Assembly: GCA_004794655.1 (NCBI GenBank)
Contig: SMMW01000524.1
Coordinates: forward strand, 62,001-126,000
DNA: 64,000 nt
Direction: 5' to 3'
Source of the DNA: Marisa cornuarietis
Lineage: Eukaryota > Mollusca > Gastropoda > Architaenioglossa > Ampullariidae
Shown: positions 24,054-63,400 of the stretch, piece after piece
Layout: the number at the start of each line of letters is the position of its first letter
How positions within the stretch are numbered: position 1 is the first letter of the stretch
Notes under the pieces: generated by a model
What the model was told of the DNA's origin: nothing
What the model saw: the letters and a program-made list of their open reading frames with translations, nothing else
Databases searched by the model: none
Position numbers and translations under genes: made by a program

Positions 24054-27000
24054 GTAAAAGTTGTTCAATTACTGTTGTGCTCGGTGATAACTTGACAGGT
24101 GCAAAGATATCTTGCTGCTGGTTGAATCCAAAAAATAGAAACAATGATATTTTTGCAAGCCAGTCTGCTAAAAATCACTGAATTATCATTATCATTATTC
24201 TGCACAGCTTAGAGGTATAATTTAACAACATTCAGCGTAGTAACAAAAGTATATTATTCCATTAATCTGAAAGAGGTTTGCTTAGATGTTCATGTGTTTT
24301 ATGTTATTTCTGAGGTAACATTTACACTAGATGTCTGCTTCGAAGGTCATTTCTGAAACGTCTGAGCGACTAACGTTAATACTAAAGAAAATATAATACT
24401 ATTATTTGTTTATTCGTTCATTAACTGGTTCAGAGATTTCAAAATTTCTGTTCAAGTGTACACATAAGTTGCAACAGATAACAGTCTGATTTCTGTTAGT
24501 ATGCTTGCTTTGGCAAAGTCAAGCTAGTATTTTTGTAACTTATCGAATCAAAATGGTCATTGTGGTTAATGATTAGATTATTCAATAATTCTACAAATCT
24601 TGCGACTGTTTTGCATACTTTGGACCTTACGAAATAAAACAGATAAAACATATAACTGTAATTATGCTCTTAGGTATGGCTTCATACAGCCTTATAATAC
24701 ATAATACAAGTCTAAACTTTTTTCCATTGTACGAATAAGAGGTTCTGTAATTTTTATTTGGCTGCAAGATAGGTTGTCTTGTGAAATATATCTGGTCTGT
24801 CACATAGTCTACACAGCACTTAAGAAGTTTGTCCACATCATTTTTTCAAAACCTCTCTAGAAAGGGTTTTATAATGCATCTACCCATAGAACATTTAGAC
24901 AAGACAGTAATTAGAATCGTTGCAAATAAATACCTAATAAAAAGAAATGTAAATAAAAACCAGTCATTGTTATTCCCTTTTTGTTTCTTTTCTTAGTTGC
25001 TTTACCTCTATTTATTTCAGGCCCAGAAGGTTCCTATATAATTAGTTTTGTTACATCATATCATGTATTATCATATCATGTTTAATACAACAAAAGCTGC
25101 ACATCTAGTTGCAGAGTTTCTGTATTAAATGAGGCCTTAATCAACTTATATTACTATTTGTTAATGCATTGTTTGGATGTTTCATGAAAATTTTGCTTCT
25201 TTCAAGATTTAAAAAAAAATTATATTGTTGTCAAAGGTATCTTAGCTACTTGTTTGTGTATAGTATTTTTCAAAAATACCTCTTATGGTAACTCCATTTT
25301 TGCTGTAGTCCTGTGTTGTCTGTGGTTAAGGGGTGGGTCGGTGGGTGGGGGTATGTATGAGAGAGAGTAGTATTATCTTACACCCTTCCCCTATCAGTTA
25401 CTTTCCATATTCTTAGCCTGTAATGTTGAGCATGGGAAACCTGACCATACGCTCTGCTGTACAAGCATCTTCATTATTAATATTATTAATTTATACAGAT
25501 TGAAAATATACAGCGTGTAATCAAAGTCACACGCAAGAAACTGGAGGAAATGAATGAAGAATTTGGCAAGCATCAACATCCCCCATCAATTTATGTCCAG
25601 GTAGGCTACTTTTGTCATCTACATTACCTCTATCAAGCATTATTATTAAAAGTCTTTACAAGATTAATATAAAGATACCCTTTTCCTTTCTTTGTGAATT
25701 CTTTGTGACTGCTAAATTTAAAATGTGTTAATTGACCTACATATTCAGTAGGGGTGGGTGAAACAGGAGATGCATAACAACTAACAAGTCTCTCCAGTGT
25801 TATCTGCTATATGCATTAGGTTATATAAGTGTGTCCTGTCTCTGAGATATATATATATATATGTGTGTCACCCTCTTTCTGATTCCTTCTGGAATTCCGT
25901 GCAAGACAGCAAGGCTTGTAGAGTATTCTGGCTAAACCATGACAGATTTCTTTCCCCTGTTATGTATTGGATTTTTGGGATTGGCTTCTTTTTAATGAGG
26001 TGATAACAATATAAATACTTTATGCTTTATCAACATTCATTTCTGTCTTGGGTTGTGGAAAATATGCATAGAAATATGAGGTTTTTACAAGATCTTTAAA
26101 TATAACTGTTAACAATGAAGCTGCATGATATGGTTTACTTTAAAAATGTTGGTGTGGCTAACTTGAGTTGCTGCTTAAGATTGGTTGATCATTGTTACAG
26201 CTTTTTCACTGAAATTGCCTATATTTATTAAGTTACTAACTAGATGATGCTACAACTGCTCTTTGACCAAACGAATTACGAGTTAGCTTGGCGGCCTGGT
26301 GGTGCAACGGTTAGTGCCGGTCACCAATACAGTGAAGGTTGGTTGTCCTGAGTTCAGCTCTTGTCTTGGGCACGCTGTTCTTTCTTTGCATGTGGCATCT
26401 GTTTACAGGGCTGGCTGCCTTGCTGTGATATAGCCTTAGTTGCTGGTTCAGCATAAAACACCAATTCCTCCTGAGGAGTTAGCTGTCCTGACTGCTAAGG
26501 CCTCTGCTGTACCCAGGTGCATCTGCTCTCAACTGCTGTATAAGGTTCTGTAAAAAAAAAAAAAAAGTTTAGCGGCCTTTTCCTTTATTTAAGAGCTACA
26601 GTACACATGCACTTTACTGTCGTCACTCTTTAGCCTGCCTACCTGGGCTATGTTCTTTTTATTGACAAGATCATCATGGAGGATTTTTTTGGGGGAGGAA
26701 GTCACTGCTCTGTGTGCTGCTGCTGTTTATTGCAACATGACTGACATTTGCGCCAGATGGTCAGAGGCATGATGGGCTCAGGTTTGAAGAGACAAGCTGC
26801 CACAGGTTGGGTTGTGCTTGTAGTGGTAGGTGTCAGAAAGTAAGACCAGTTTTTTTGTTGGAAGGTTTTTTCTCAGTGCAGTGGCAGGCCTCTGTCCATG
26901 GGTCTGATTTTTATGTGGTCCCTGCAGTAATCACTCCCACACCAGTAACATTCATCTTCAGGCTCTCTCACTCTCCACAATCTGGCAGCTGTCTCCATAT

Positions 27001-30000
27001 ATGTTTTGGACCAAATAGACAGACCTTGGTTTCTCCTTCATAACCCTCCAGTCTGCCTCAAGCTTTGCTTTGATGAAAGGATTGCAGACACTTTCAGAAG
27101 TGTGTGCCACGCTCAAGACCTTCTCAGTCAAGGTCCTGGTGGTTCCAGTCTGATGGAGGCAAGCTTCCTGTATATTCATGCCTCCTGAAGCTGCTGTGAG
27201 TGTCCCTGTCTCTCTTCCATCCAGCTCCAAAGTAGTTAACCTTCATGCCTAGGCATTATCTGCACAGCCTTTAGAAAGAATTGCAGCCCCTTAAAGATCC
27301 TCTACTTTAAAGATAAGGACTTTGGGTAGATTACGGCCCATGCTGACCCAGGCTGCTGCCAACTCACTTGCTCTGGCTACCATCATATCGAGATTAGACT
27401 ACTGTAACAGTGCATTATGGGGTATACCTGCTACGTAGTTAGATCGACTCAAAGAGTTCAGAACACAGCCGCCAGCATTGTCACCCATGCAAAGTCGTCC
27501 ACTGAGCACATCACCCCTATCCTACAGAGCCTTCACTGGCTCCCATTGAAAAAGTGCATTGATCACAAAGTGCTTTCGATTGCTCAGTCCTTCATGTTCA
27601 GAACTTCTCCTGACTATTTGCAAGAGGTTCTTCCTTACCAGCTGTCACGTCACCTGTGCTCTGGCTCCCAGTCACGCTTCTGTCTCCCTGCAGTGGAAGA
27701 CACAAACAAGAAGCACACTGGAGCCAGGGCCTTCAAAAATGCTGTGCCTAAACTGTGGAATGCTCTACCATTGTCATTGTCCACCATCACCTCAGCAACC
27801 ACGTTTCGGAAAAGACTGAAGACCCATTTGTTTACTTAAGATGGACTTAAACAACCAAGCAACGCTTTTGTCTTTATTTTTTTACTTTCCTGTTGTTTTA
27901 TTTTTTCTTCTCTTCTGTTTTTTGCTGCGCAGTGAGCATTCTTCTGAATGGATACCTGTGCATTACAAATGGACACCATCATCATGTATTTAGCCATGTG
28001 GAGTCTTTACATGCTAGCACTTGCTGGTGGCTAACTTCTTCCTATGGGTTTTCAATGAGAAGTACCTGGCTTCCATCACAATTAAGGGATACTGGGCCAT
28101 GCTTTGTCATGTGAGCCCTCTGCTGATAATGGTTCAATCGCTACATTCATCCAGACATTATGACCCAGTGTGTCATGACTTACCTTCAAGCATTCCTTCT
28201 GTGGTTTGAATGATCCCAGCTGTTCCTTCCTCTTAGGCTGGACCTTAGATGTGTTTCTTCTCAGACCTTGTTCTTTTGGATCAAGTCTGTCATGAAGGAT
28301 GCTTATAAACAGCTTAAGATGTTTAAGGCACAAGCACATGAAGTGCAGATGGTGACTGCTAGCCTTGGATTGTGGTTCTGGTCAATATTGTGACCTCCTT
28401 CAGATGGTTCTGTGACTCTTCCCTTTGGTGTGTTCTACATCTGTAATTTTTCTGCATGTGGTCAGCCCCATCTTGCCTGTACAGCACACCACAGCCTAAA
28501 ATTGCTGCATGTTGGTTGGACAGCTGAGTGTGATTTTGGCAGAGTCCATTTCCTTGTAGTTATTCTCTCAATGGGTCATCTGGCAAAGTTAATGAAGAAA
28601 TGAAATTTTCTTTTATATTCTCGTTCTTTAATACTAACCAGATGGCCTGACACAAATGCCTTGCCATCCCCCATCTCCCAGCCCATCTGCAAGAGGGGTT
28701 GACAGACAGACTGCTGAGCTCTTTTTGTGGAGCCTTGTATTATTGTTTAAGAGCAGATGCACTTGGGTACAGTGGAGCTCCTAGCAGCCAGGACCAATAA
28801 GCCCACTAAGCCCACTGACCAGTAATGTGTTTGGTTATAGAGCAGTTGTAGCCCCAAAGTTCCTAATAGTTGGCTTTTCTGGTAATCATTGAAGAAAAAG
28901 AATTTACAAGAAAACTTTCATTTTTACAATTATGGTGTTGAGTGCAGTGACCTTTATTGGATAAAGATCGTGTGTTCAAGATATATTGAGCAGGCCTATG
29001 GGTGAAACTAGACACAAATTTAGTGGACAGATCAAAAGGTCAAATGCCAGTCAGTTACCTGTGCTGTTCCAGACACTCCACAGGCAAGTCAGTCAATCTT
29101 TTTGACATGCTGATGGCTGAGTGGTGTTAAGTGGTTGCTGCTACTGGGGTGGGGGGTGACAATATATGGCTTGTCTATAAAATTATAGGCAGTGGTAGGC
29201 TGAAGTTTTCAGTTCAGAACGATCTTTTGCATGTTTCTCACAATTCCTATACGTAACTGTTTCCAGGAGTATGAAGAGCTGGCCAGCAAGATCCATGAGT
29301 ACCAGCTGCGAGAGCAGCGTCTACAGGAGCAGCTGTCCCTCTGGAGCGAGTCCCCACCTCCTTCCCCTGTGCATAGTCACCCCTATGTGCACCCTAAACC
29401 CCAGGCACCAGAAGACCCACTCTTATCTCCAGGCCCTCCCCTCACCCCCAGCACCAATGCCTCGAGCACGCAGAGACATCCGTACAGACAGCGATCACCA
29501 CAGGCTGGGCGGCCTGCTGGCTCCTTTATCAAGGCATACCTTCCGAACAATCAGGTGACCGCGGTAAGCATTCAGTGTTCCTATTCCTAAATGCTTCGTT
29601 TTGTTAAGTATGCAAGGTAAGAGAGTAAGAGAACAAACAAGCTTCATTTAACAGATCTGATTTTTCTTTAGAAGCTTCAGTGAAGATGAATATTCTTGGT
29701 TTTGTCAAGTGAGACGACAGACTAAGAGAACGAAGTTGTGCAAACAGTAGAGTTCAGCTGGTATCTTCCGTTTGCAGCTTACTCTCCTCCCCCTCCCTAA
29801 CTCCAAAAGCCTAGCAGTGAAGAATATTTTAGTATTGTAATGATATCACTGTATATGTTTATAACATTTCATGTCAGTTGTTCAAGATCAAGATTTCATT
29901 TTACAATAATTAGAAAAATAAATAGCTTTGAACTGTTTGTCTGTGACATTATTATCAGTTCTGTATGTATTTGAGAAAATAACTTTTGCTTCAAAATAAC

Positions 30001-33000
30001 AAAACCTTTGAAATATGATGGTGTAGAAAGAAGGAATAAGCACGAAAAAGTGGGGAAGATAAAGATAAAATGAACATGATGAGTTTAAGATAACAGTTCT
30101 GTTTGATTAGTCAGGGCATTGTGTGCATATGTGTACTAATCACTTTCCTCTTAAGCCTCCCTTTTCCATGATTTTCTTAGCGAAAATCATTTGGCAAAGA
30201 TAATAAGCTGCCAAAAAATCCCTTTCTCTCATTGCATATAAAGTCTTGCTGCGTGGTTTGATGATTGGAATGCTTAAGAGCAAACAGTTCTCCGAGAGAC
30301 ATATAGTTTTCTGTTCTTCTTGGACTTGATCATATTCCAGGTTCCCGTCACGCCAGGAATGCCTCTGCGTGATGGACTGGCCAAAGCATTGCGTTTGAGG
30401 ATGCTAGACAGAGACAAGTGTCATGTTTTTCGCTACAACACAAGGTAGTGCTTTCCCTCCTTCACCCCCTTCCTCCACCTCACAACCAACATATTCTGAA
30501 AAGTCTTTTCAAATCTGCACGTTCCTGACTTTTGGGCTTGCTGTCAGTTTAGAATAATAAATTCCACATTAAAAGTTATGTGAAATTTGATGAGTTTTTA
30601 CAGAAATCTTGTTTGTGTCCTCTAAAATTTCTTCTCATTATTAAGCACTGTTATTTCTTACAGTGTTAATAGCTTCACTAATGCCAGTTATCCCAGCTTT
30701 ATTTAACTGGCTTTCCTACTACTATAGGGAAAGGATTTTTTGTTCGAATACTACCGAATTGAGGTTTCTAAGTTAATGAAAGGAAGTTGTAGATTTAAAT
30801 AAAAAGTCAGTGCACTTTTGGGAGCTATTTAAAATTTGACAGGTTAAAGAATAAAAGACTTGCCAGTGAGAACCAGGCTATTGCGGCTTATTTGTTCCAC
30901 ATGAAACTTCTGGGGATACAAGGATTTAATCACTTTTTTCCAGTAATCAGAAGCATTTAAGTTTTAAAAATCAGGTGAACTTAAAGTTCAAGAAATCTTC
31001 TATTTTGCTAGTTCCTAGTTTATTAAAAGTTTATGTTTATTTTGTATAAATACCAGACCATAAAACAGCAATAATCTCAATAACCTAGTTATCCCAGGGA
31101 GTGGCAGAAAACCAAGAAAGTTGGCAATAGTAGGTCTGTACTCTTATGGCCAATCAGGGTCTAAAGGACTAATCACAACGAGAGTCATCATATCCAGTTT
31201 ATCTTTAGTTTCATCTACCAGTAAAACAAGAGCACTGTTTTCCATCATTTTATTTTTAAAGAAAATTAATGATGCTAATCCTGTGAGCAAACAGAGTGGT
31301 TGACCCAGGAAGACTTTTGATGATGATTACTATTTACCTGTGGCTTGATGCTGTCTTTTTGAACTCAGTCTTCGATTTCTAAAATCTCTAGAAACTGCCC
31401 TGAAAGAAATTGTAAACAAAATTAATGCTGGTCTTGACTTTCTGGTCTATTAGGAGCCCTTTGCTCTACCATATGCTATTGATGTAGCTCAGTTGTGTAA
31501 AAAAAGAGGAACGTCAAGGGGGTACCTGGTTTATTGGAAATGGTGCAAGACACAGGTGGGTGATTGCTGAGCTACTGTGTAACACAAATTGATGGTGGAC
31601 CCTTAAGTGGACCTTTATCTTGTATTTTTTTAAAGCCATGAAAGGCATACATAACTACCTGGGAGTAGTAAATAAAAATTGGTACATGGATTATGCAGAA
31701 TTCCACTCACCTGGAACACAGATATGGCAGAACTAGCAGGCCAGGAAGTGTCAGTAGAACTAATTGAGAGCGACGACGACAACAGCCGCCTTTCTAGAAA
31801 TGCACCCAGAGCTGTGGTTTTGTCACACAATTTTGTAAGTAAGAATAGATGTTCTGGGGAAGTGTGTGTATAGGGGAAGAGGGTAAAAAAGTAGGGAAAA
31901 TGGTATTTTGTTCCTGTGTAGCAGGATAAATTAATGCAATGTTTTGAATATTTATTATCATAATGGAAGAACTTTATAAGGTTTGCTCATGATTTATCCA
32001 GAATTGAGACAAAATATTGCTGTTGCTATGCTTTTCTCATTTATTTTGTCTTGGTTCATGAATAACGAGCTTGTTTGTGATTCATTGCGTTAAGTTGGTG
32101 ATTGAGTGATGCTAGCATTATGTATAAATGCAATTCATTTTTACATAGCATTTTATAAGTTAAGTGTATTATTTTATACTTAATTTTTTACTTTAAATTT
32201 CATCACCTCCTGTGTATTCTTAAGCCTGTGCATTTTGTGTATTGAAGGATGTCATTGGTAGCTAGTGTTTATAATGTTATTTCTTTATTATTGTTGATCA
32301 GTACAGTTTTGTTATTATTGCTTTGTGTGGTGTGTAATAAAGTGCTCAAATAAATTAACACTACAAAGTGTATTTTCATGTGTTAAAGCCTAGGAATGTA
32401 GTATATTGGTTATAATTTATATTGTTCACCTATTCAGGGGCGGAAGACCTACTTCTCATTGACCTTCTGTGATATGTGCCGAAACCTGCTGTTTCAAGGC
32501 ATCCGTTGTCAGACGTGTGGTCTCAAATTTCACCAACGCTGTGAAGATAAAGCTCCACGCACTTGCCAAGGAGATCTGGAAATTTACTTTCGTCAACAGC
32601 GGGAGGGCTCCCGTGAACAACCCAAACAGTAAGCTTATTCGCTTGATTAGCTCTTTACTCCTTTAGCTGCCAAGCTGATAGGAGGTTTTCAACCATATTT
32701 GTCCAAGAAAGCTGTAAACAGTTTAGCAGTAGAAGAACAGGTCTACTGAAAAAAACTTCTGCAAATCTGGTGTGTTGTAGATGGTTTGATGGCAAAAAGT
32801 TTGTTGCTAAATATGGAAGAAATTCTATCAACAGTCTGTCCTCATCAAAAAAAGGAAAACCTTAAAGCAAATAGATGATGGTGCTCTTTTTATTCCATTA
32901 ATTTTCTTACATTTATATTGACACTATAGTATTACATTTATATGAACACAACAGTATTATATTAATATCGACACCATAGTATTACATTTAGATTAGATTA

Positions 33001-36000
33001 TCCAACAAGCCAAACTTTTCAAAAGTCATTTAAAAGAGACAGCCATTTAGCACTATTTTCAAGGTTACTTAAAGACTAAATTAACAAATAAACCAGGCTG
33101 ATAAAAAAATATTCTGCTGAATATTTCAAGTCATGCAAGAATACTATGCACTGTAACATTTTCTATGAACTTCAAGTCAAGGATGGCAGGCAGATGACCA
33201 CATCCTGCTGTTGGTTCTCAACTGATAAGGGAATTTCCTTTCACTTTGTTTCCTTCCTGAAGTACTCTAAAGTCATCATAGATCCCTTGTACATGTCACA
33301 ATGTTGATGCCCAAACACCAGCTGCATAGTAAAACCAAGAAACAAGTGGATGAGTGTACACTGTTCAAAACATTGCAACACTGTGTTATAAGCTGAAACT
33401 TCCAAACCTGCTTGCCTTGAGTGACCCTATAGTTCTACATCTTGTCAGTCAACAGGTTTTATAGTCAATAGACCTGATGCTGTGAACTACTGTATAGTTC
33501 TACATTTTGTCAGATATGATTAACAGTATAGTTTTACATTTTGTCCAATATGGTTAACATTTTAGTTCTACAATTTGTCAATCCACAGGTGGATAATAGA
33601 CCTGACACTGTAAAATATGAGAAGTTTTCATGCCTTCTGTTTTGTAGCCTCAAACAGATTATAAATATCTAAGTTTTTTGGGTGGGGTGGGTAATGTGCT
33701 TATAGAAAGTCTGGAATTTCTTTGCCAACAAATAGAGATAGAGCAGATAAAGGCAGATAGGAAATAGCTGTTTTGGTTTTTATTGTATGAGAAATATCAG
33801 TTAATTTGCCATTCTCATTAGCAGCCAGTACAACAAGTTGTGAACAAGGATGACTTTCCCTGGACTTTGAATAAAACAATAATTATAAAAAAAAGTAGGT
33901 GGGGTTTAAAATGGTCCCTACCTTGAGTCATTGAAAAGAGAACTTAGCTGTTATAGACCACACCTATGTGTTGGGTCCATTGTTTTTTTGTTTTTTGTTT
34001 TTTAAGCACTGTGCCTATCTCTCCTATGCTTCATTTCCACCTCCGTTCCCCATCCCTATAAGGGTTAGGTACCTGTTCAACCATGTCGTTAGAATGGCTA
34101 GTGTGAGTGCCTCCAGCCTCAGATGATTTTGCTCTACCCACATAGCTATCTGCTACTTCTTTTAATATCTTCTCCCATAACAGTTGAAGCAGTGCTGATC
34201 ACACAAATGCTTTAAGCAGTCCCTTTTTTTGGTCAGAGATGGGCAGAATGCAGTCTATATTATCTGTCTGACTGTTGAACAGGTCACCTCGAACCACCCA
34301 CCAGTCTCGCCCCCCAGCACCTGGCATGGGACAAAGGGCTCGCTCTACATCCGCTCCTAATGTTTCCGTCAATCTGGTGAACATCCCCGATGACATGCAA
34401 GAGGTAGGAAGATGGGTAGGCTTTGTAGTGTGTGGGTCGTGCTTATTGTGTGAGGTGGACTTGAGCCACAGGATTTGTTGTCTGACATAACTGTTAAAGT
34501 GCCTTTGGGCATTCATATGCTTTTTCTGTAGTTCCAAAAGACAGTTCAGAGAAATATTAATTGTAGACACTGTAAAAAAATTTTTTAATTTAAATCTGTG
34601 TCATGTCGTGTACACAGCATTCTCTTGCTTTTTTGTTTTTTTCTTCCCTTTCAGGTGGGCATGCATTTTACACATGGTCACATGTGTGTGTGTAAATATG
34701 TGAGTGAGTGTAAGATCCAGGAAAATAGCATTGGTGCATTGTTCATGCTAATTAACTAATTCCTAGAACAATTGTGAAAGTACAGGTGTCCTGCACTTAG
34801 GGATTTTAGTGTGGAAGATATTCATTCCACTGTGTCCACGTGGCATTGACTTCCTAAAGAAAACACAGATTCTTGATATTTTTGTAGGATACATATTCAA
34901 GACGAAGTCAGGCCAAACATTATACAGGTTGGTTTTTTTCAAATGTTTTTTTTTTCTATTTTTGTTCAATTAAAGTTTCATTCTATGTAGTGTATGTGTA
35001 CACATCTGTGCGTGCGTATATATATATATGTGATAGTATGCATGAGTATACATCTAGCCAAGATATCCATAGATGTGTTACCAGTCTTTGATAAGTGTTA
35101 AGATACATACACTTCCTGCATCTCAAAAAAGGCAGTGTTGCTTTTTTTTACATCTTGACTATAATAAAGTTGTAAGCAACATTGCTGATAATGCTATTTT
35201 CATTTGCAATTTAATTATTGAACTTAGATATTCAGACTACTTGACATTGCTGAAAATGGTCATTGGCTCATCATGTGGCAAAACATGAGCAACCAAAGCT
35301 TTCTGCTTAGGTTTTCCATGTATAGAATAAAATGCCATTTTTTCAGATACCCCTTTGGGTTCACGGTTTAACTTTTACAAAGAAAAACGTCATGCTAGTG
35401 ACAGCCACGCCACCATCATCAAAAATCCTCTTGTGCACAAAGGTATCACGGACTTTCTTCGGTCCGATCACCTCTAGAGCATGAGCCATCTACCTTTGAT
35501 GATCCCTGTCAGTGCAAAGTTTGGGTGTGCCTGCATGAATTGCCTTAAATCTCAGTGACACCCTTTTGATGATCTGCCCTATCTTTGAAGAAATGGCAGT
35601 TATCAGAAGCACAAGAACAAATTCTTGGTTAGGAAGGAAACTTTTCTAAAATGTTAGATTTTCTTTGCTTCTCTTCACCTTCTCCCCACATGACCTGGTA
35701 CATCATTGTTTCCATTTAAATTTCCAAGTGGTTCCTGCTTATTACGCCTGCTGATTATATGGTTTTAGCTTAATCTTCGGGCCTCGCCATCAGTGTTAAC
35801 TTTGAACGGGACTTTGTTTTTCTTTTCTCCTTTTTCGCTTTCTTTGCCAGAAAGTTTTATGGGGAGTGGGATTAAATACCTAGAGTCAAATTAAGTTTTT
35901 AAAAAGCCTGTATTTACAAATATTTTAGATTCTTAAACTACTTTTATGCCAAAATTGCCCATTATAATATATTTTTTTAAGTTGCAAAACATTCATTGTT

Positions 36001-39000
36001 TGGTTAGAGGTTTCCCCAAACAAACTGTTTCAACATTTCATTATTTTGTCTTGCATACTAACATTAAAATGTTAGAAATTGTGATGTTCAGTTGAGTTTA
36101 TATTAAAAGTTTTTTCAATAATACGACCTTCCACTAAAGCTACATTTTGACCTGTAACTCTCTGGAAAGTAACTGTTCCTCAGAATGCACAGTCTTGATT
36201 AATCTGACTTTCTGCTCTGGCATGTGGGTTGACGCAGATGTGCATCTCGTTTACTTGGAGCCTTTTGCAGTCCACTAACCTTCAGTATTACAGTTTTTAG
36301 TCCTCAGTGACCATTGCTGTTATATGCTGCTATTTCTGGCATTTTCAGTGGTGTATTCTTGGGAAATAAGTATTTCGTGTTAATTGTGAAGCCAGACTAG
36401 CTTGTGGGAAATTGGCTGTCTTGTTGATCCTTTTGGAGATGGTTATCCTGCAGAACCATCACCAGAGAAAGCTTATAACACTGAATAGTGTTACATAGCC
36501 ATTGTGGATAATCAGGGCCAGCAGAAATTGTTTGTTGTCAACTTTTGTTTTTTTTTGTGTGTTAAGGGGTTTAAAGAGGAATAGAGGTAGTGTTATGATA
36601 TTGATCTTTAGAAAATTGTGGTAAATCTCTTGGATGCAAAGATCGGAGCTAACAGAAGTATGTCTAATATTATTCAAATTTAAAATACACATTTTTTCTA
36701 TGTGTTTTTATATTTAATCTGCTACTGAATTCTCTTTCTCACCACCTATTTTAGTATTCACCTAGCTCATAAACAGTACTTGGCAGCTGTGGTAAATTAA
36801 CTGGAAAATACTGGTTTCCTCAGATCTCCAGTGCCCAGTCTCAAGATTGACTCCTCCTGTTCCTAGCCCAGGTGGTTCACCCACGAAAATTCCCCATTCT
36901 TCTCCATCCACCGGTGCCAAGCCACGTACACGAGATGTAGAAAAACGACAGGTAACAAAACAATCAATTCTGTACATAGATGCAAGATTTTAAATTGTGT
37001 AACACAATGAAGTTTTTTTTCTTTTTACTTTAGCATCTAGAATCAGGTTTAGGACAGGTCAGGTGATATTTAAGACATCACCTGACACCTAGCAAGTAAA
37101 GATTTCCTTTCTATTACAGTTACTTTGAGGAAATGCTTTATTGTTCTTTCCCTATTGGAGTCTGAACTTTTTTCATGGTTCTCTTAACAGATAATATGGA
37201 AAAACATGAGCTTGTTTCATCATAGTTAATATCAGACAAAATTTCATTCCTTTTGCGCAGCGTATCCGGCGTGATTCTAACGAGGACTGGGAGATTCCAA
37301 ACGATGAGATTGTTTATGATCAGCGTATCGGCTCGGGTTCCTTTGGGACAGTGTTCAAGGCACATTGGCATGGGCCAGTTGCAGTGAAGAAGCTCAACGT
37401 TTCAGACCCGACCCCATCTCAGATGCAAGCATTCAAGAATGAAGTTGGGGTCCTGCGGAAGACAAGGCACTGCAACATTCTGTTATTCATGGGGCTGGTG
37501 TCAAAGCCACACTTGGCCATTGTCACACAGTGGTGCGATGGACATTCTCTCTACCAGCATCTTCATGTGAAAGAAACCAAGTTCCGTATGGACCAGCTCA
37601 TCATGATTGCCAAACAAACAGCCCAGGGGATGGAGTGAGTGCCTTCATAGCGGACGTAATAGTGGTAGCATTGACTTTTATTACATACTAGAATTTTTTT
37701 TTTGGTGGGAATCTGTTAAATTTGGACGGAATACTTAGAACTCCTACACTTCTTTTTATGTTATTGATATATTTGTGAGGGTGTCATTATTTTCTTTTTT
37801 TTATTTTTTTATTTTGTAGATACAGTTATTCAAAGCTTGTCAGAAAAACATGTTGCAAGGGAGATAACAAGAACAGTTGGTATTTGGGGAGAGACAATTC
37901 TTTGTGACTTTTAGGAGTTCAAGAACCAAGAACTTTTTTAAGTACAACAGAGGGTTTTCATTTGATATTTAGCATCTAAATATTTGGATTGTTCAAGATT
38001 GTGGATGTTCATTCTTGCAGCTACCTTCATGCGAAGTCAATAATTCACAGAGATCTGAAGTCAAACAGTATCCTTTGAATGAAAGAAGAAAAAGAACTTC
38101 TGTATTACATTTGAAAAGTATTTTGACATCTTGTATGTATGTGCATCTTAGCTTTAACAAACATTAATTTTCATTATTTTCTTTTTAGTTTAGCTCATTC
38201 TTCCATACTCAGTTTCCAAAGAAAGCTATCGTTTTAAAGGCAAATATACTCTGTTGGTGCATAATGACTGTAAATGTCTGTGGTCATGCAAGAAGCAGTA
38301 TCTACCTTCATAGTTCCTCCATTCTTTCTGCCATTTGAAGGCAGAAGTGAAACTTTAGGCAGGTTTCATAGATGAATCTTATGTCTTTAACAGTAAAACA
38401 GACATATTCTTGACAGAGGTGATGACAGAGAATATGCAGGTAAAGATAGGTGACTTTGGCCTGGCCACAGTGAAGACAAGATGGAGTGGTTCTCACCAGT
38501 TTCAGCAGCCCTCAGGATCAATATTGTGGATGGTAAATGTTCACTTCAATATTAGAACCGCTTTTGCATCTGGTTAACAATAGGCCAAGAGATATATGGG
38601 GGAAAATTTGACTTTAACACTTTATAGACATTTTTTTGACGGAGGTGATGACAGAGAACATGCAGGTAAAAATCGGTGATTTTGGTCTGGCCACTGTCAA
38701 GACAAGATGGAGTGGTTCCCATCAGTTCCAGCAACCCTCTGGCTCAATATTATGGATGGTAAACTTTAAATTTCTTAAATGTGTGTGAAGTTTTCCTTCT
38801 CCACTGTTTGTGTTAGTTCCAAGAATCTAACCTGCAGTAACGATGTTTTTAACAAGATATTGCTGCATTTCTTATTACAAGTAATGTAGAATATCTTCAA
38901 ATGTTTCCAATGATTTTTGCCACTCGTTGCTACATATAGTAAACTCATTTGATACGGACATTAATGATGCACTTAAGCTGTAGCTATAAAGATTTTTGCA

Positions 39001-41507
39001 TTCACAGGTGCGAACTGTACAGAAGGAGTTAAACTTCTCATTATCATTTTTATCATTTAAATGTAGTGATGACTTTTTTCTTTAAATCATCAGAAATCAG
39101 AGTAAAAGCTTATTTGCAGAGTTCTTGTGTTAGTGTAATATAATGTGATCCTTTAGTGTTGTTTTACTGCTTGCATGTTTCACAAATTGCATAAGCATAC
39201 CTTTGTCAGGTAACCCTGTGTCATCTGACCATGTGGAAAGGAAGGTGTCAAGAAATACTCTTGATCATGCAGCATGGTTTGTCAGAGTGTCATTGGTACT
39301 GTGTGGTTTTTTTTTTCAAGGCTCCAGAGGTGATCCGTATGAAGGAACAGAATCCTTACACATTCCAGTCTGATGTTTATGCCTTTGGAATCGTGATGTA
39401 CGAACTGGCTACAGGAGAGCTTCCCTATACGAACATCAACAACAAAGATCAGGTGTGTGGCACCATTAGGAGCTTCTTTTTTATTATTCTCTTTCCTTCT
39501 GTTTCAGGTAAGTCAGGCTATGCTGCAGCAAGTGTAAATTGTGCATTTTATCATTATTAAAAAGTCTTAGTAGTGTTTTAGCATTTATTATTTTCTATTC
39601 TAAGCATGGCAAAGTTGTCAAATGTTTGAGCAGGTGTGAGATGTGGGTGTACAGCATCCTGTGCTTGCGATAGTTTGCATTGCCTTGCTCACCTGGCATT
39701 TATTAAGCATTTCCAAGAATGTGATGCATCTTTGATGCAGAACTGCTGCTAATTCAACGTGTGGGTTCTTGAAGTCCCTTTGCTAACTGCTTTCTCCCTT
39801 TCTCTCTCTCACACAAACATGTTGAGAGCATGTTCCTTCGTGATCGTGATCATGTGTTATATAAATCCCACAGTATTATTATTACTACATATAATACACA
39901 CACACACACACACAGGCTCTCCCCTATGAAATGCAATTATTGTCAGTACTAGATTTTAAAAAAAAAATTTCAATTTCACATCATGAACTTTGGCAGAATT
40001 TGTTCTGTGTTGATTTTCTTTTGTAGCCAGTGGCAGCACATCATTTGACACATTTCATAGCTCTACTTTATAAGATGTGCAGAGCAATGCATTTTACTGA
40101 ATGTAAAACTTAAAAACATTTTTCTTTCATGCTTGCATCTCTGCCAGATTGAAACAAGGATCTCAAATAGACCTTCTATTCAGAAATGGTGGCTGTGATA
40201 AAATGTAACCTAGTGAGGGGAATGGCTTGGCTGTCTAAAAATATTACAGCATGCCGTACTTGAAAGTGAGAACAGGCATTGGCAGTCTGTGTCAATATAC
40301 AACACATGCAGAATGTTTTAGTACTTGGTTTTAGATAAGATTCAGGTCAGTTTGCCGTCTTAATATCATTTTTTCCATATTTGTGGATTCTTTAACAGAT
40401 ACTTTTTATGGTGGGAAAAGGATACCTTCGGCCTGATATTTCGCATTGCCGTTCAGACACACCCAAACAGTTCAAGCGCCTTATCCAAGACTGTGTTCAA
40501 TTTGTTCGGGAGGAACGGCCTCTCTTTTGGCAGGTTAGTGCGAGTGAGAATGCAGGCTTGTGTGCAACCGGAGAGTGTGGAAATGCCCATTACATAACTC
40601 TACTGAGACCTCAAGCCACATCTCGCTCCCCAGGCAAAATTTATGTGAAAAACCAACAGTTGTAAGAGAATTCATGGTAAAGCAAAGTAACTTCTCTGGT
40701 CTGGATAGTGGAAGTGTGTGCTTGAATGAAAGCAGGAAGGAGGAACTACAAGTGTATATGTATCAGAATGGGTGTTTGTGATTGAAGGTGGCTGTTGCAA
40801 GGGGGATGGTGGGAATAGGGATGTGTGTTTTATATACAAATGTAGAAAAAATATTTGAATAAGACAGCTCAGGGAATATCTAAGCTAAATGGGTTTGTAA
40901 CATTAGTAGGTTACTTTTTCTTTAAGATATTTTATCATTTGTCCCTTGTTACTGTTTTTTCTGTGAAAAAAGCAATAATTGTTGCCAAACAGTTTACATG
41001 CAGGCATAAAGCTTGGTGTGGAAGAAAGGGAAAGACAGTAAAGGTTTACCAAACTGTTAGCAACAAGCATACAACCACATGACACAGTCTGACTCTAGAT
41101 CATCTCTTTTAAAACTGCTGCTTCTCCAGCTCTACCTATCACTTTATGTAGGAGCCACTTTAAGTATCTATATATATACCTGCAGGGATTTGTAGGTGTA
41201 TGTTTGCCTACAGGGATATGCCGGCATATATCTGCATCCAAGGATATGTGGGCGTATGTGTGCTTGCTAGTTAAGCTCTGTTAGTGGTTGATAGCACTGA
41301 TCTGATGCCTTTGTTGTTTGTCCCCAGTTGCTGGCCTCCCTGGAGTCGCTGTACATGTCCATCCCCAAGATAAAACGAAGTCAGTCAGAGCCTGCCATTC
41401 ACCGCACAGATTCATTTGACTCAGACTTCAAGTACATGTGTGCATCTCCCAAGACTCCCATCAATAGTCAGTTCACCAATTTTGTATTCACCGGTGGCAT
41501 GTACTGA
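23955..41507 (+). CDS. BRAF: RAF-family serine/threonine kinase (B-Raf-like), complete gene
   Basis: MAP kinase kinase kinase that binds Ras-GTP at the plasma membrane and phosphorylates MEK. Fourteen coding exons join in phase to about 722 codons (human B-Raf 766, fly Raf 739). Domains in order: B-Raf-specific region (about 34-85, HPPSIY motif), Ras-binding domain (about 154-227), C1 zinc finger (about 244-292), CR2 14-3-3 site RSTSAP (Ser about 333), acidic N-region DSNEDW, and kinase (about 405-670) with GSGSFG, VAVK Lys about 433, HRDLKSN, DFG 548-550 and APE. The C-terminal 14-3-3 site is RSQSEP (Ser about 683). The B-Raf-specific region and acidic N-region favour B-Raf over C-Raf; many invertebrates have a single RAF gene, so orthology to the vertebrate paralogues is inferred. 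Odd points: a tandem-duplicated DFG exon and a 4-residue insertion before VKIGDFG. Listed exons are separate entries. Confidence 0.95.
25499..25600 (+). CDS. BRAF: RAF exon 2, B-Raf-specific region
   Basis: Acceptor ttatacag, donor gtaggc, phase 0 to 0, 34 codons. Encodes a helical segment ending [10 protein letters not shown], matching the NPPSIYLE segment of the B-Raf-specific dimerisation region, which C-Raf lacks. Confidence 0.9.
26285..26565 (+). mobile_element. tRNA-derived SINE, family A, longest copy
   Basis: Box A-like TGGTGCAACGG and degenerate box B GAGTTCAGCTC at the head, then a body shared with other copies (GGGCACGCTGTTC, GCATGTGGCATCTGTTTACA, CAGCATAAAACACC) and a poly-A tail near 26550. 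In RAF intron 2. Confidence 0.75.
27335..27990 (+). mobile_element. 5'-truncated LINE 3' end in RAF intron 2
   Basis: Encodes [16 protein letters not shown], then one stop, then [30 protein letters not shown] and [10 protein letters not shown]...KTHLFT, the usual C-terminal end of CR1/Jockey-like reverse transcriptases. The 3' UTR matches 20417-20819 with a much shorter CATCAT end. A 140-codon frame remains open. Confidence 0.85.
28745..28800 (-). mobile_element. SINE family A 3' fragment
   Basis: GAGCAGATGCACTTGGGTAC and CAGCCAGGAC are the reverse complement of the 3' body at about 26480-26530. Only the 3' part is present, in RAF intron 2. Confidence 0.5.
29267..29563 (+). CDS. BRAF: RAF exon 3, coiled helix, linker and start of RBD
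   Basis: Acceptor gtttccag, donor gtaagc, phase 0 to 0, 99 codons. Starts [19 protein letters not shown] (second half of the B-Raf-specific region), then a Pro/Ser-rich linker, and ends with [10 protein letters not shown], the first strand of the Ras-binding domain. Confidence 0.92.
30341..30444 (+). CDS. BRAF: RAF exon 4, Ras-binding domain
   Basis: Acceptor atattccag, donor gtagtg, phase 0 to 2. Encodes [19 protein letters not shown]; the LRDGLAKAL helix keeps the Arg corresponding to the Ras-contacting Arg of human RBDs. Confidence 0.92.
31699..31834 (+). CDS. BRAF: RAF exon 5, end of RBD
   Basis: Acceptor ttatgcag, donor gtaagt, phase 2 to 0. Encodes [21 protein letters not shown], matching the end of the B-Raf RBD, then an acidic loop (ESDDDNSR) and SHNF, whose His is the first C1 zinc ligand. 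Confidence 0.92.
32438..32628 (+). CDS. BRAF: RAF exon 6, C1 zinc finger
   Basis: Acceptor ttcag, donor gtaagc, phase 0 to 2. Encodes [27 protein letters not shown] and a final RTC, so all Cys/His zinc ligands of the atypical C1 domain are present. It ends in a hydrophilic linker. Confidence 0.95.
34283..34403 (+). CDS. BRAF: RAF exon 7, CR2 with inhibitory 14-3-3 site
   Basis: Acceptor gaacag, donor gtagga, phase 2 to 0. Contains [15 protein letters not shown], matching the RSSSAPN 14-3-3 site (Ser365 in human B-Raf) that holds the kinase autoinhibited. Confidence 0.93.
34655..34699 (+). other. possible alternative small exon of RAF
   Basis: A very strong polypyrimidine tract and AG end at 34654, followed by an open frame. 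Donor gtgagt after 34699 gives a 45-nt phase 0-0 exon; donor gtaaat after 34691 gives a 37-nt exon ending in phase 1. I see no matching segment in known RAF proteins, so this may be a decoy site. Confidence 0.25.
35347..35442 (+). other. possible 96-nt cassette exon of RAF
   Basis: Flanked by ttttttcag and aaag/gtatca, length 96 nt. It is open in two frames. Phase 0 reads [13 protein letters not shown]... and phase 1 reads [15 protein letters not shown]..., joining the first AG of exon 8 at 36823. It sits where RAF paralogues have a variable, alternatively spliced linker. No homology supports it. Confidence 0.3.
36832..36951 (+). CDS. BRAF: RAF exon 8, CR2-CR3 linker
   Basis: Donor gtaaca, ends phase 0. 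Using the AG at 36831 keeps phase with exon 7 and gives [19 protein letters not shown], a Ser/Pro linker resembling the B-Raf LSATPPASLPG segment. A competing AG at 36823 would need an upstream exon ending in phase 1. Confidence 0.78.
37261..37634 (+). CDS. BRAF: RAF exon 9, N-lobe of kinase
   Basis: Acceptor tgcgcag, donor gtgagt, phase 0 to 2. Encodes [11 protein letters not shown] (acidic N-region), GSGSFGTVF glycine loop, VAVKKLN with the catalytic Lys, [13 protein letters not shown] (the dimer-interface Arg region) and hinge [14 protein letters not shown]. Confidence 0.97.
38021..38067 (+). CDS. BRAF: RAF exon 10, catalytic loop
   Basis: Acceptor cttgcag, donor gtatcc, phase 2 to 1. A 47-nt exon encoding [15 protein letters not shown] with the catalytic Asp of HRD. 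Its phase-1 end obliges the next exon to begin with two codon-completing bases, as both copies of exon 11 do. Confidence 0.97.
38402..38532 (+). CDS. BRAF: RAF exon 11a, DFG/activation segment, first copy
   Basis: Acceptor aaaacag, donor gtaaat, 131 nt, phase 1 to 0. Encodes [13 protein letters not shown], then [17 protein letters not shown] and GSILWM. Thr553-Val554 correspond to human Thr599-Val600. The sequence is 87% identical to exon 11b with no amino-acid change. Its upstream pyrimidine tract is poor and a second AG at 38393 would lead to a stop. Confidence 0.95.
38628..38758 (+). CDS. BRAF: RAF exon 11b, DFG/activation segment, second copy
   Basis: Acceptor tttatag, donor gtaaac, 131 nt, phase 1 to 0, only 95 nt after exon 11a. 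Encodes exactly the same residues as 11a with 17 third-position differences in 43 codons. If spliced after 11a the frame reads ACA TTT TTT TGA, an immediate stop, so the two must be mutually exclusive. Confidence 0.95.
39321..39452 (+). CDS. BRAF: RAF exon 12, APE and C-lobe
   Basis: Acceptor ttttttcaag, donor gtgtgt, phase 0 to 0, 44 codons. Begins [20 protein letters not shown], with the APE glutamate and the alpha-F Asp, and ends [12 protein letters not shown], all standard RAF C-lobe. Confidence 0.96.
40399..40533 (+). CDS. BRAF: RAF exon 13, C-lobe
   Basis: Acceptor tttaacag, donor gttagt, phase 0 to 0, 45 codons. Begins [15 protein letters not shown] and ends REERPLFWQ, matching IIFMVGRGYLSPDLS and DERPLFPQ of B-Raf. 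The frame stays open past the donor by chance. Confidence 0.96.
41328..41507 (+). CDS. BRAF: RAF exon 14, C-terminus and stop
   Basis: Acceptor tccccag; stop TGA at 41505-41507; 59 codons plus stop. Encodes [21 protein letters not shown], where RSQSEP is the C-terminal 14-3-3 site (Ser729 in human B-Raf) that stabilises active dimers, then CASPKTP as in B-Raf and a divergent tail. Confidence 0.96.
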   Translation: MLASLESLYMSIPKIKRSQSEPAIHRTDSFDSDFKYMCASPKTPINSQFTNFVFTGGMY

Positions 41508-57441: not shown

Positions 57442-60400
57442 TTGTGTATAAATCTACAGGACCAAGAAGAGTCAAATCCAGAAAAAAGGTCTTCAAAAAA
57501 ACAAAATACATCAACACAAATATAAAAATAAATGACAGTTACTCATTAATGGAAATCTGCTTCTCAGTCTTTCTCATCCCTTCTCTAATACACACATACA
57601 CACGGCTTTCTCATACCCCTGCTGAGTTCCTGCACCTCAACTGATGGATACAGGAGATAGTGGGCCTGGTTAGACAAGGCAGCCCACGATAGTCCATGAT
57701 GAGGTACTCCATAGAACAACAGTCCACAGGTGCTGGTCTGTATGACTGAGTATCTAGCATTACCTTCTGCAAGTTCCAGCATCTGCTTGATCAGCAGCCC
57801 TGGAAAAAGAAAGGTGAATCAAAGGCTGATGGTCAAGAAGAGGTAGAAACGACCACATTAAGGACAAGTAGGCACACATGACTGCAGTAAAAACAGGTAG
57901 GCAGAAACGACTGCAACAAGCACAGCCACAAAGCTGTGATGGATAGCTATGCAGATGTGATAGCTCAGTAGATCCGACTACAGTTAATATAGCAAAGCGT
58001 GCATGATCAAAAGTAGGAATAGCAAAGCAGGCATGATTACAATATTTATAGCTACATAGATATATTTATATGCAGGATAGCTAGGTAGAATTGTATTATA
58101 AAACAGCTATAGGCTGACAACAGCATGGTAAAAATGGTGGGGCATGAATGACTGAGCCTGAGGCAGGTGAGGCAGGTAAGACAGTGAGGAAGACATGCTG
58201 ACGATCACCTCACCTTAAGTGAGGCACACTTAATCACCTAAAGGAGATAGCTGGGCAAAAATGGTCAAAATAGGATTATATTAGGCACTGATATACTTTT
58301 GGTCACAAAGACCAGAGGTTACCTCCCATGGAGTGTCCAACCCATATGATGGGCCTTGAGCCCACCCCAGCCTGACGTAGCTTCTCTAGCATGTCTTTGC
58401 TGCGACCTTCCAAAGTTCGTCTTGAATAGCAAGGTCATTTAAAAACAGAGTGTAAGTAGAATTGCTCAATGAGAGATCCTCCACCTTTAAAATGAGCTGT
58501 TACTAATCATGCCTTTCAGATAAGCATATTTGTGTAAATTCTGTGTAGACATTTCTCCAATTCCTATGCAAGCTGGAGTTTTATAGTTTTCTCAGATTTG
58601 TGTACACACATCCACACAAAGTACCCATGTATACACATGCACACACACACAAACACACATGAATACACAATAAAACACATCCACTTGCACACAGAGACAG
58701 AGATGATAAGGAAATAATTCAGCTACACAGTGAAATCAAGGAAGTATTTCATACTTGTCTCTCTCATAACGCTGCCCACTCCAGGTGCTTAAGGATGTGT
58801 CGTAATGAAGGCTAAGTATTCGAGTGTGTGGACAATCTTCAGCCAGCCAGTCCTAAAAACATGTGACACATTTTCTTCAACAATATATGAACATGCCCTC
58901 AGACATTTGCCAAAACATGTAATGGTGTAGCCTTCCTGAGGATTCCTGCAAGCACTGATGCTACCGAAACTACTTCCACTCTGCTACAAATGACTGCAGA
59001 TCAATGGCTTAAGCTACAGTTTAGAGGTCTTCCCATTTAAAATTCTTTGCAGTAAATAAGAAGCAACGATCCACATAATCAATTAAAAATTTCAAAGATT
59101 AAGTTTAAAGTTCTGAGGTTTCAAGACAAGCAGCATATTAGGAATCATGGTTCCATCCCTAGCATAATTCTACATGAATTTATTAAAATCCTGTAGACAT
59201 GTATGCATGCACAAATCAATAGTCTACCCCCACATCTATATAGTTTTTATGTAACAGTTGTTTCTTCAGAATATATAAATCTATGAAGGGTGCAGTCAGA
59301 TCATATTAAGCATACACAAACCTTTGGCCAGCAGGCTGTGTGCACTTGAGATGGACTGTCAGCAGGTGCAGACGCAGGCATGTCTTGCTGCCTCCATGTC
59401 TTGATGGCACCACCCAGAAGGCCATGAATAAAGACTATATCAGCATGCATAGTTTTCCTGAAATGGTGAGACAAGCTGCTCCTAGCAATACTTTCAAAAA
59501 ATGGTGATATATCTCAAACCGATCCATTTTTAAAGCAGCCTTTTAAAAATTTATTTATAGTAGTAATGAACCAACTGCACTATTTTATTATCTACAGGCT
59601 TGAACTAGAATTCTAAGCAAAACATAAAAGTGGCATTGTACATCACAGCATTATAGTTAAGTAGCATCTTGAATATATTTCATGATCAATTCGCCACAGA
59701 TACATGTATGTATACAGCACCAACAGAAAGATTTCAAATACTACACGGGTCTCTTACCTATCCACCAACCATAACTCTCTGAGGAAGCTGCCAAATAAGA
59801 ACATAAAACAGAAAAGGACAAAGTTCACTCATTCCTCTATATGTACTGGGATCACAGAAGCAAATAAGGTCTATTACAGGTGTGCACAAGTACACAGAAT
59901 TCAAACTCACTTTGAACGGTAGAGAGGATGAAGCAGAAACACTCCATCACCAAGAACATCTGGTGACCAGTCTCTATCAAAGTTAGCCAAAGCTCGCAGG
60001 GCTAAAAGTGCCAAAGTAACGTTTCTATCCTCTGACCACTTTTTTAAGACTCCAAGCCATCCTACAAAACATCAAGTGACTTTTGACAGGTAAAGTAAAA
60101 TAGATACCTCTAAAACAAAGCAATCGCATACATGACCTCATACCAGCCATTAAAAGAGGTTGATGTTTTATTTTTCCCCTATATTATTTTGGTGAAACTG
60201 TCTTTTGACTTAGATAGCTTGAGGGCCAATAACTAAGGAATGTGCTTTGTGTGAAACACGGGAAACTTTGTGCACACACACACACAGCCGACACATACAG
60301 AAAGATGCCTTTACATTCATATTCTTCTTCTTCTTATTATTCCTTTTCGTCCCCAGTGGAGCATAAGGCTGCAACTACACCACGCCAGCGAACCCGGTTC

Positions 60401-63400
60401 TGGGCCTCCCTCCCCAGTTGGGTCCATGTCATTCCAGCTGCCTCCGCCTCGCCGTGGACCGATCTTCTCCACGTCTGTCTGGGTCTCCCAACCCTGCGTC
60501 TCCCCTGTGGGTTCCAGTCCAGAGCTTGTCGTGTTAGATTTTCGGCCGGCTTTCGCAGGGTGTGGCCCATCCAGCCCCACTTTTGCTTCTTGATGTCTTG
60601 GCTGGCAGGTTTCTGGTTGGCTCTCTCCCACAGGTATGCATTGGAGATTCTCTCGGGCCATCTGATGTTGAAAATGTGCCGCAGACATCTGTTTATGAAT
60701 GTTTGAATCTTCCTGGTGATGTTGTTTGTTACACGCCATGTCTCAGACCCATATAGAAGGACAGATTTTACGTTCGTATGAAAGATGCGGATCTTGGTAT
60801 GTTGAGATAGTGCCTTGGAATTCCAGATGGGTCGCAGGATGTGGAATGCTTGCCTGGCTTTATTTATTCTGCTTCTTACATCTTCATCAGCACCTCCATC
60901 CTTGGTGACTATGCTGCCTAGGTAGGTGAAGCGGTCAGTCTCTGTAATACATTCCCCGTGTAGCTGAAGTGGGGCTTCTTGCTTGTTGTTGATCCGCATT
61001 ACCTCTGTCTTCTTGATGTTGATTGTCAGGCCAGTTGTCGCTGCTTCTTCTGAGAGCCGAGTGAGCTTTGTCTGTGCATGTTGTTGCTTGTGGGACAGCA
61101 GGCTGATGTCGTCTGCAAAGTCGAGATCCTCAAGTTGCATGGCAAAGGTCCATTGAATGCCTGTGTTGCTGTTAGAGGTTGTTCTTCTCATGATCCAGTC
61201 TATGACAATCAGGAAGATTGTCGGCGAGAGCATGCAACCTTGCCTTACTCCAGTCCTCACTGCAAAGGGGTCCGTCAGCTTCCTATTGTGGATCACCTGG
61301 CATGTCGAGTCCTCATACAGCTGTTGGATGATGGCAATGAACTTTGGTGGAAATCCGTAGTGCTGCATCAACTTCCAGATGGTCTCTCTGTCTACGGAGT
61401 CAAATGCCTTCTCAAAGTCCACAAATGTCATGTATAGTGGGGACTGCCATTTGATGGACTGTTCAATAATGATTCGCAATGTAGCAATATGGTCTGTGCA
61501 TGATTTACATTCATATGCTGAGACTCTATTATGGCCACTTTGTAGAGGTCTTACATTTACATCTCACAGAGGTCTCTCACCCCTGCTCTTCATGTGTATA
61601 TATACATATATCTCACATCTACAAGTAGAGTCACCTGCACGAACAACAGATTGGTGCACCTCCGACTCTGAGAAAGCAGCCAGATTGCCAAGAATGGCTG
61701 CTGTGACTGCTGCCACTTCCTGGTCAGGCTTCATCTTGTTCACCCTCTGTAATGTGGCTAGTCCATGGTTCTTCATAAAAACAGCTGCTTGTTCTTGCTT
61801 CTGTCATTTTTGGGTTTTAAGAAAAAAAAAACAAACTTGCCTGAATGAAGGTATCAGATGGACATCATTAAAAGACATATTTAATGATCTTAAAAGAAAC
61901 TGTTATTTTCACCACCAGCTATATTTTTATGGAAAGTCAATACAATGGACAACTCAACTTCAAGGAACTCACTGTTCAGACTAATTCCTTGAAATTAAAA
62001 CCAAGTGATATGTGATTCTTGCTGAAAAATTCATATGAACAAAAATACTAGAAAAATGGAATAAAAGGCTTTTCAGCAAGATAAATACATTGTGGAGACA
62101 ATTTTAACACAATCTGATCTTCTGAAGAGCCGTATACGTACTAGCACAGCCATAACGTATTTGGTTCATGGCACAGAAACTCACATTAATCAATCTCTTG
62201 ATGGTGTAGAGAAAAATCAGTTCTAAGTTTTCATTAATAGGCAAATTTCTGTCAATGGTAACATCAATCGTTGAACTGTCAAAGTCCCAGAACATATTCT
62301 GAAACAAATCCAGGTCTCCATGTAAAGATGTTGCTCTAAACATTTTTTGAAATATTACAGCTACACAGGCTAAGAGTCAAAAGAAAAGGGAAATAGCACA
62401 TTGGTCATAAATGATTGGATTTTAATTTTGGTTTTAAATGAATCATTTACTTGCAATGATGTCTAAAACAAAGCTGCATGCTGATTCTTAGAGGCTGACA
62501 TGGTTCATTCTCTTTCACAAATAACAAACAAACTGATGGTAAGTCATGACATAGAAGGAACCATTTGACAAGACAACCATTCTCTGTCACGACAGTCTTC
62601 TCCACGTTGCTCAGCTATTCTTTGCTAATATCGAGTTCAAAATTGTATGGTACGATTCCCAGAGCCATGATGACAGCGTTTAAACAACCACTTTAGAGAC
62701 TGAAAGTTAAGTCACAATCTGAATGGTTTTGATAACCTAGCTGTCTCCTTGTAAGAGCTGTGTTTTATATGCAACTGTAAATGATTGCAACCCAAACATC
62801 TGACCAGAAACAATTCACAACATCAGTATCTATCATTTTAAGTCCAAGATGCCATTTTACTTGCCATTTCCTTTACAAAAAAAAACAAAAACTCTCAACT
62901 GAAGTAAATTGCCATAGACACACACACACACACACACACTGATGCCTACTGATAGACCAACGCTATTCCTGTCAATAAAACAAAACAAACAGTTAGTCAC
63001 AACAACTGTGTAGTGTAGTTGTTATGATGCAGACTAAACACTGGTCACTGTCTCACGCTTTGCTTAACTGGCTTAAAAAATCAAAATCCATGTCTACAGA
63101 CACCTTCTCATCTGCAGTATGGTCCTTAGTCTCAAGATAATGCTCAGCCAGTATGCAGGCATTCCTATATGTATTCTGCTCAAGAGTAATTTGTTGAGGC
63201 TTGGAGGTGTTAATGCATGTGTCTTCCTCAACATTACAGAGAACAATCAGCAGATTAGCCAGCTCTTCTGCAACTGTTTTCTGCAGCACACATTAAAAGA
63301 TCAGATTCCCAGAAATTTTTAAAATAAAAACATTGAAGAGTTTACCCAACCCCCTCCCCCCAAAAGAAAATGCTGCGGTAGGAAGTAATATCTACCCTGA

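Follow-up and report, generated by a model that had tools for sequence, protein, structure and literature searches.

We describe two tandem copies of a RAF exon in the snail Marisa cornuarietis. The copies encode the same 43 amino acids, and we consider it probable that they are mutually exclusive exons, kept apart by the class of their splice sites. The RAF gene lies on the forward strand of the window, by which we mean the whole 64,000-nucleotide stretch of DNA analysed. The two copies are designated exons A and B. The gene and its relevant exons are listed below.

25499..41507, forward strand: RAF gene in which the pair lies; the span opens at the earliest coding exon identified and closes with the stop codon, and the exon with the start codon was not located.
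38021..38067, forward strand: upstream constant exon (exon 10), 47 nt, encoding HAKSIIH and holding the best match of the mouse Braf_U12_intron primer.
38402..38532, forward strand: exon A, 131 nt, encoding the DFG motif and activation segment.
38628..38758, forward strand: exon B, 131 nt, encoding a peptide identical to that of A, with 17 synonymous differences.
39321..39452, forward strand: downstream constant exon (exon 12), encoding APEVIRM...; its acceptor is U2-type (T10 CAAG; T content 0.71) and ranks last of the 16 acceptors for U12 branch score.

When joined, the 14 constant exons and exon A form a single open frame from position 25499 to the stop at 41507; in this reading exon 2 was begun 3 nt early, which adds one Q. 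In the PDB, the kinase part is matched best by human B-Raf, with E 8.4e-136 over residues 3-272 of the 273 submitted. Overall, the top-ranking relative is P0001, an A-Raf-like protein of Pomacea canaliculata, with 87% identity over 83% of the incomplete query. Per exon, identity to this protein ranges from ~78 to 100% (tblastn against the whole window). These matches bear out the initial annotation, which had assigned the exon to the DFG and activation segment of a RAF kinase. In addition to a RAF-type kinase domain, the gene contains N-terminal Ras-binding and C1 domains, as judged from the alignment of window exons along P0001, whose precomputed Pfam list holds PF02196 and PF00130. A protein search with the N-terminal part returned 5 matches, none from a closer relative of the species. 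Among the 120 RAF homologues listed, 12 did not fit the pattern HRD(L/I)K...DFG, and the six inspected are without the string HRDLK. Elsewhere, the window contains a minisatellite (7074-8973; 40-bp unit, 48 copies, 94% matches) and, on the reverse strand, a 408-residue open frame (60337-61563) whose translation looks like a non-LTR retrotransposon reverse transcriptase. No Rfam family passed its gathering threshold anywhere in the window.

Exons A and B are separated by 95 nt. They differ at 17 of 131 bases; every difference is at a third codon position and is synonymous, so all 43 residues are identical and exchanging one exon for the other would not diversify the protein. Each copy has its own AG acceptor and its own GT donor, and the two have equal phase. 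The frame is kept with A alone or with B alone. Conversely, joining A to B gives ...LWM-TFF-stop, and joining exon 10 directly to exon 12 gives 17 further codons, including the junction codon, and then a stop. The pair thus has the sequence properties of mutually exclusive exons, being tandem, homologous and in frame only singly. The initial annotation had described the pair in these terms and had argued that the frame requires exactly one copy per transcript; both points hold. No third copy was found in a repeat scan of 37800-39600 or by tblastn of P0001 against the whole window.

Two features escaped the initial annotation: exon 10 ends at a U12-type donor, and A and B are each preceded by a U12-like branch site. 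The splice-site elements around the pair are as follows.

38068..38076, forward strand: U12-type 5' splice site GTATCCTTT, donor of exon 10, matching RTATCCTTT at 9 of 9 positions.
38383..38391, forward strand: U12-like branch site of A, GTCTTTAAC, whose branch A lies 12 nt before the exon; best of 16 acceptors.
38533..38541, forward strand: U2-type 5' splice site of A, ATG followed by GTAAATGTT (GTAAAT); U2 match 7/9, U12 match 5/9, no TCC core.
38610..38618, forward strand: U12-like branch site of B, GACTTTAAC, whose branch A lies 11 nt before the exon; second of 16 acceptors.
38759..38767, forward strand: 5' splice site of B, ATG followed by GTAAACTTT (GTAAAC), read as U2-type but less clear-cut; U2 match 6/9, U12 match 7/9.

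Among the gene's 15 donors, GTATCCTTT alone exceeds a 7/9 match to the U12 consensus, and the next best is the donor of B at 7/9. In the window, GTATCCTTT accounts for 2 of 7641 GT 9-mers on both strands, the exon 10 donor included. This is not rare, since shuffled sequences predict 1.35 occurrences. The weight of the motif lies in its position at a donor.

Both acceptors of the pair carry candidate U12 branch sites. With the branch-site weights used, for which ranks count for more than scores, A scores 8.6 and B 5.5 (next acceptor 4.1); these values are equalled by 0.38% and 1.7%, respectively, of the 8504 AGs in the window. The branch-to-exon spacing of 11-12 nt is usual for U12 introns. Aligned in register, the two branch sites match at 10 of 11 positions; of 200000 AG pairs drawn at random, 0.15% did as well. 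In a local alignment of the introns preceding A and B this stretch comes out best, while the surrounding 60 nt are 33% identical. The acceptor of A has no pyrimidine tract (47% pyrimidine) and that of B is 65% pyrimidine. On the other side of the exons, the donor of B is without the T at +4 and the C at +5 of U12 donors, and has no TCC core. The class of B appears less certain than that of A because its branch score is modest, its acceptor is 65% pyrimidine and its donor matches the U12 consensus at 7/9. Even so, motifs place U12-type sites on the upstream side of both exons, more weakly for B, and U2-type sites on the downstream side, with the donor of B less clear-cut. This is the arrangement expected of a U2/U12-incompatible pair.

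From these motifs we infer that the minor spliceosome acts at this locus, where it would join the U12-type donor of exon 10 to the U12-type acceptor of either A or B. The major spliceosome would then join the U2-type donor of A or B to the U2-type acceptor of exon 12. An intron from A to B would pair a U2 donor with a U12 acceptor, and one from exon 10 to exon 12 a U12 donor with a U2 acceptor; both would be hybrids, and would not be spliced. Only 10-A-12 and 10-B-12 would be permitted, each containing one of the two copies and reading through in the same frame. Since the frame is broken by these two hybrid joins and by no others, every permitted product would be productive if the site classes hold. 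For the same reason the switch between productive transcripts and nonsense-mediated decay, which the initial annotation had offered as an option, is unlikely given the predicted classes.

An ordinary tandem pair of exclusive exons could also be envisaged, with U2-type acceptors throughout and exclusivity arising only from the frame and from nonsense-mediated decay of double and skipped products. The stop codons reached with both copies or with neither are a real frame result, and the acceptor of B is fairly rich in pyrimidines. However, such an arrangement leaves unexplained a perfect U12 donor at exon 10, the top two U12 branch scores of the gene falling to A and B, and the lack of a pyrimidine tract at A. 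We judge it improbable, though it is the most serious competitor to exclusivity by splice-site class.

The divergence between the copies bears on whether both are used. In the exon, A and B are identical at 114 of 131 bases, but in the adjoining 60 nt at only 20 on the upstream side and 21 on the downstream side; their resemblance is therefore not due to chance. No significant homology was detected between the flanking introns: the local alignment of the upstream introns was equalled by 14% of 300 shuffles, and that of the whole intron by 52%. The flanks are at chance identity, in line with the initial annotation, which had called the flanking introns largely unalike. A random change in the exon is synonymous with a probability of 0.20 to 0.25, so that 17 of 17 changes would all be synonymous with a probability of ~2e-12 to 7e-11. 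The dN/dS comparison that the annotation had called for gave a synonymous divergence (NG86/JC dS) of 1.48, with a codon bootstrap of 0.59 to saturation, against zero amino-acid differences. Of 17 fourfold sites, 7 differ, which gives a JC distance of 0.60. The proposal of purifying selection on both copies is supported. Since dS is high and the flanks are at chance identity, the duplication is old.

These figures also weigh against one copy being unused, with the other the source of all RAF protein. If one copy were unconstrained, ~8 changes would have fallen on it, and the probability that all were synonymous is ~3e-6 to 2e-5. Splice sites have moreover been kept in both copies at a synonymous distance of ~0.6 or more. 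We regard a silent copy as very unlikely. The identity of the two peptides would instead imply that both copies are used, in which case amino-acid changes in either would be removed.

Exon choice might alternatively depend on competing RNA structures, or on steric closeness of a donor and a branch point. An inverted-repeat scan found 5 inverted-repeat pairs in 38068-39320. The donor stretch of A pairs with 38344-38357 (14 nt, 86%), its acceptor stretch (38391-38400) pairs with 39160-39169 (10 nt, 100%), and an inverted repeat links A to B (12 nt, 92%). However, the fold of 38068-38900 is no stabler than those of shuffled sequences (z 0.52; 14 of 20 shuffles as good), and the donor of A is 85 nt from the branch point of B, beyond the 50-nt limit used in the relevant passage of PMC5740500. 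Steric closeness is an unlikely cause, and we would give this explanation as a whole slightly less credence still than a silent copy. RNA structure is not needed for exclusivity, and the single fold considered is ordinary.

We compared the exon peptide with 15 gastropod proteins. It does not differ from that of P. canaliculata at any of 43 residues. One residue differs in each of Batillaria, Nucella, Littorina and Gigantopelta, two in Haliotis, 3 to 5 in seven heterobranch proteins, five in Lottia and ten in Patella, whose exon start is misjoined. With a single residue of 43 changed in each of three other caenogastropods, the identity of A and B needs no special cause. The Q of ENMQ is found in A, B and Pomacea; in the other 14 gastropod proteins the residue is T in 13 and M in one. 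On the simplest reading, the duplication followed the change to Q in the apple-snail lineage, although the shared Q may reflect independent change or conversion. Each of the other listed gastropod proteins shows a single version of the exon peptide, in a database clustered at 90%, where protein-identical exons are invisible.

Gene conversion limited to coding bases, suggested in the initial annotation, becomes unnecessary. The synonymous sites of A and B are far apart, and so the coding bases have not been homogenised; the peptide is also nearly constant in the three other caenogastropods. Nor is the pair an obvious assembly duplicate, in agreement with that annotation: with only the best candidates scored, the exon pair and the N-lobe kinase exon each have 1 match in the 534 Mb, 572-contig assembly. 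A young duplication, or an artefact of assembly, whose copies gene conversion has kept similar would fit the identical peptides and a Q shared, among the 15 gastropod proteins compared, with Pomacea alone, but is barely credible in view of a dS of 0.6 to saturation, flanks at chance identity and a 3.66 Mb contig.

The alignment has two further features. A 4-residue insertion before VKIGDFG (38419-38430 in A, 38645-38656 in B) is common to the 15 gastropod RAF proteins. It takes the form TEVxTENM, or VLSDNM in two limpets, one of them with the misjoined exon start; human B-Raf and the bivalve sequences compared are without it. Where exon 10 meets the DFG exon, public gene models are irregular in Nucella (P0003), Patella (P0016) and Plakobranchus (P0121), with SNTSDIFL, SNKVLSDNM and one model that continues without the exon. 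Such irregularities might, as a weak indication, mark a U12 intron overlooked by predictors.

Why two exons for one peptide should persist is a separate matter. We considered 16 critical acceptor positions, namely the AG and TTTAAC of the two copies. Were either acceptor free to be lost, these positions should have collected 4.7 to 11.8 substitutions, and the probability of finding none is 0.009 to 7e-6; this estimate relies on an uncertain dS and counts any change as a loss. The result suggests that having two acceptors may be useful. Two minor-class acceptors could add to the rate or reliability with which a slow minor intron is removed from the transcript of a dosage-sensitive kinase. It is also possible that the synonymous differences matter, through exonic enhancers or RNA-binding proteins, or that the second copy serves as a splicing backup. 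A passive alternative is a further possibility, in which each copy is kept since damage spoils the transcripts that use it. A broken donor might be eliminated by selection on account of the bad transcripts it produces, without any need for both exons. Tentatively, and with rather less confidence than we attach to exclusivity itself, we propose a long-lived exclusive pair that differs at the RNA level only. Its two acceptors and synonymous versions would be selected to set the amount or place of RAF, with splice-site class ensuring that the same kinase is always made.

The usual explanation for a mutually exclusive pair is that its exons yield two different proteins. The snail RAF pair makes one, and protein diversity cannot therefore explain its retention. 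The pair offers a ready-made natural experiment on splicing throughput, on redundancy or on regulation by synonymous sites, and its 17 diagnostic bases tell the copies apart in ordinary short reads. Duplication of an exon that is preceded by a U12-type intron and followed by a U2-type one would be harmless, and would make the copies exclusive from birth. A border between minor and major introns could in this way make exon duplication safe from the first generation, and offers a simple route to such pairs in genes of the MAPK pathway.

The position of the minor intron has a counterpart in mammals. Passages of a 2025 study (PMC12332006) name BRAF and RAF1 as minor-intron genes and list a primer pair called 'Braf_U12_intron'. 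In the window, the forward primer of that pair fits best at 38027-38050, with 19 of 24 bases matching against 16 at the runner-up position; primer and window both code for HAKSIIH there. Most likely, then, the mouse Braf minor intron follows the same HAKSIIH exon. Mammalian Braf would accordingly resemble the snail gene in having a minor intron directly after this exon, as judged from the primer match, but the passages of PMC12332006 consulted do not mention a duplicated downstream exon. A survey describes a relative enrichment of minor introns in molluscs among protostomes (PMC10639083).

The principle of exclusivity is itself established. U2/U12 incompatibility is held responsible for 5 human exon clusters (0.79%) in the portion of PMC5740500 consulted, and is also stated as a principle in excerpts of PMC6071210 and PMC6865273. 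The human clusters share this principle with the snail pair and have exactly two exons; the same portion of PMC5740500 neither names their genes nor mentions protein-identical exons. In the open-access literature seen in excerpt, which includes PMC6865273, PMC5740500, PMC12332006, PMC9013439, PMC8329584, PMC9741552, PMC6071210, PMC10639083 and PMC5896119, we found no description of a protein-identical exclusive pair or of an exclusive pair in RAF. Exons 4a and 4b of OGDH resemble the snail pair in that exclusivity resides in the intron between them. However, the sections of PMC7969005 used here attribute it to distant branch points near the donor, rather than to spliceosome class, and the OGDH products differ in their Ca2+ response.

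The closest parallel is provided by exons 6a and 6b of MAPK8 and MAPK9 (JNK), which form an exclusive pair at a border between major and minor introns, one exon being included by competing spliceosomes, and give tissue-specific isoforms (PMC8329584). As in the snail, the gene belongs to the MAP-kinase pathway and two alternative exons sit at the border of a major- and a minor-class intron. On the same account, exons 6a and 6b have two U2-type acceptors and two U12-type donors, of which the snail RAF pair is the mirror image. The JNK isoforms made from 6a and 6b differ in protein; unlike the JNK exons, the snail RAF pair encodes identical protein. Taken together, the predicted site classes and the frame are consistent with the pair being a variant of U2/U12-incompatible mutually exclusive exons, mirrored with respect to JNK and silent in protein.
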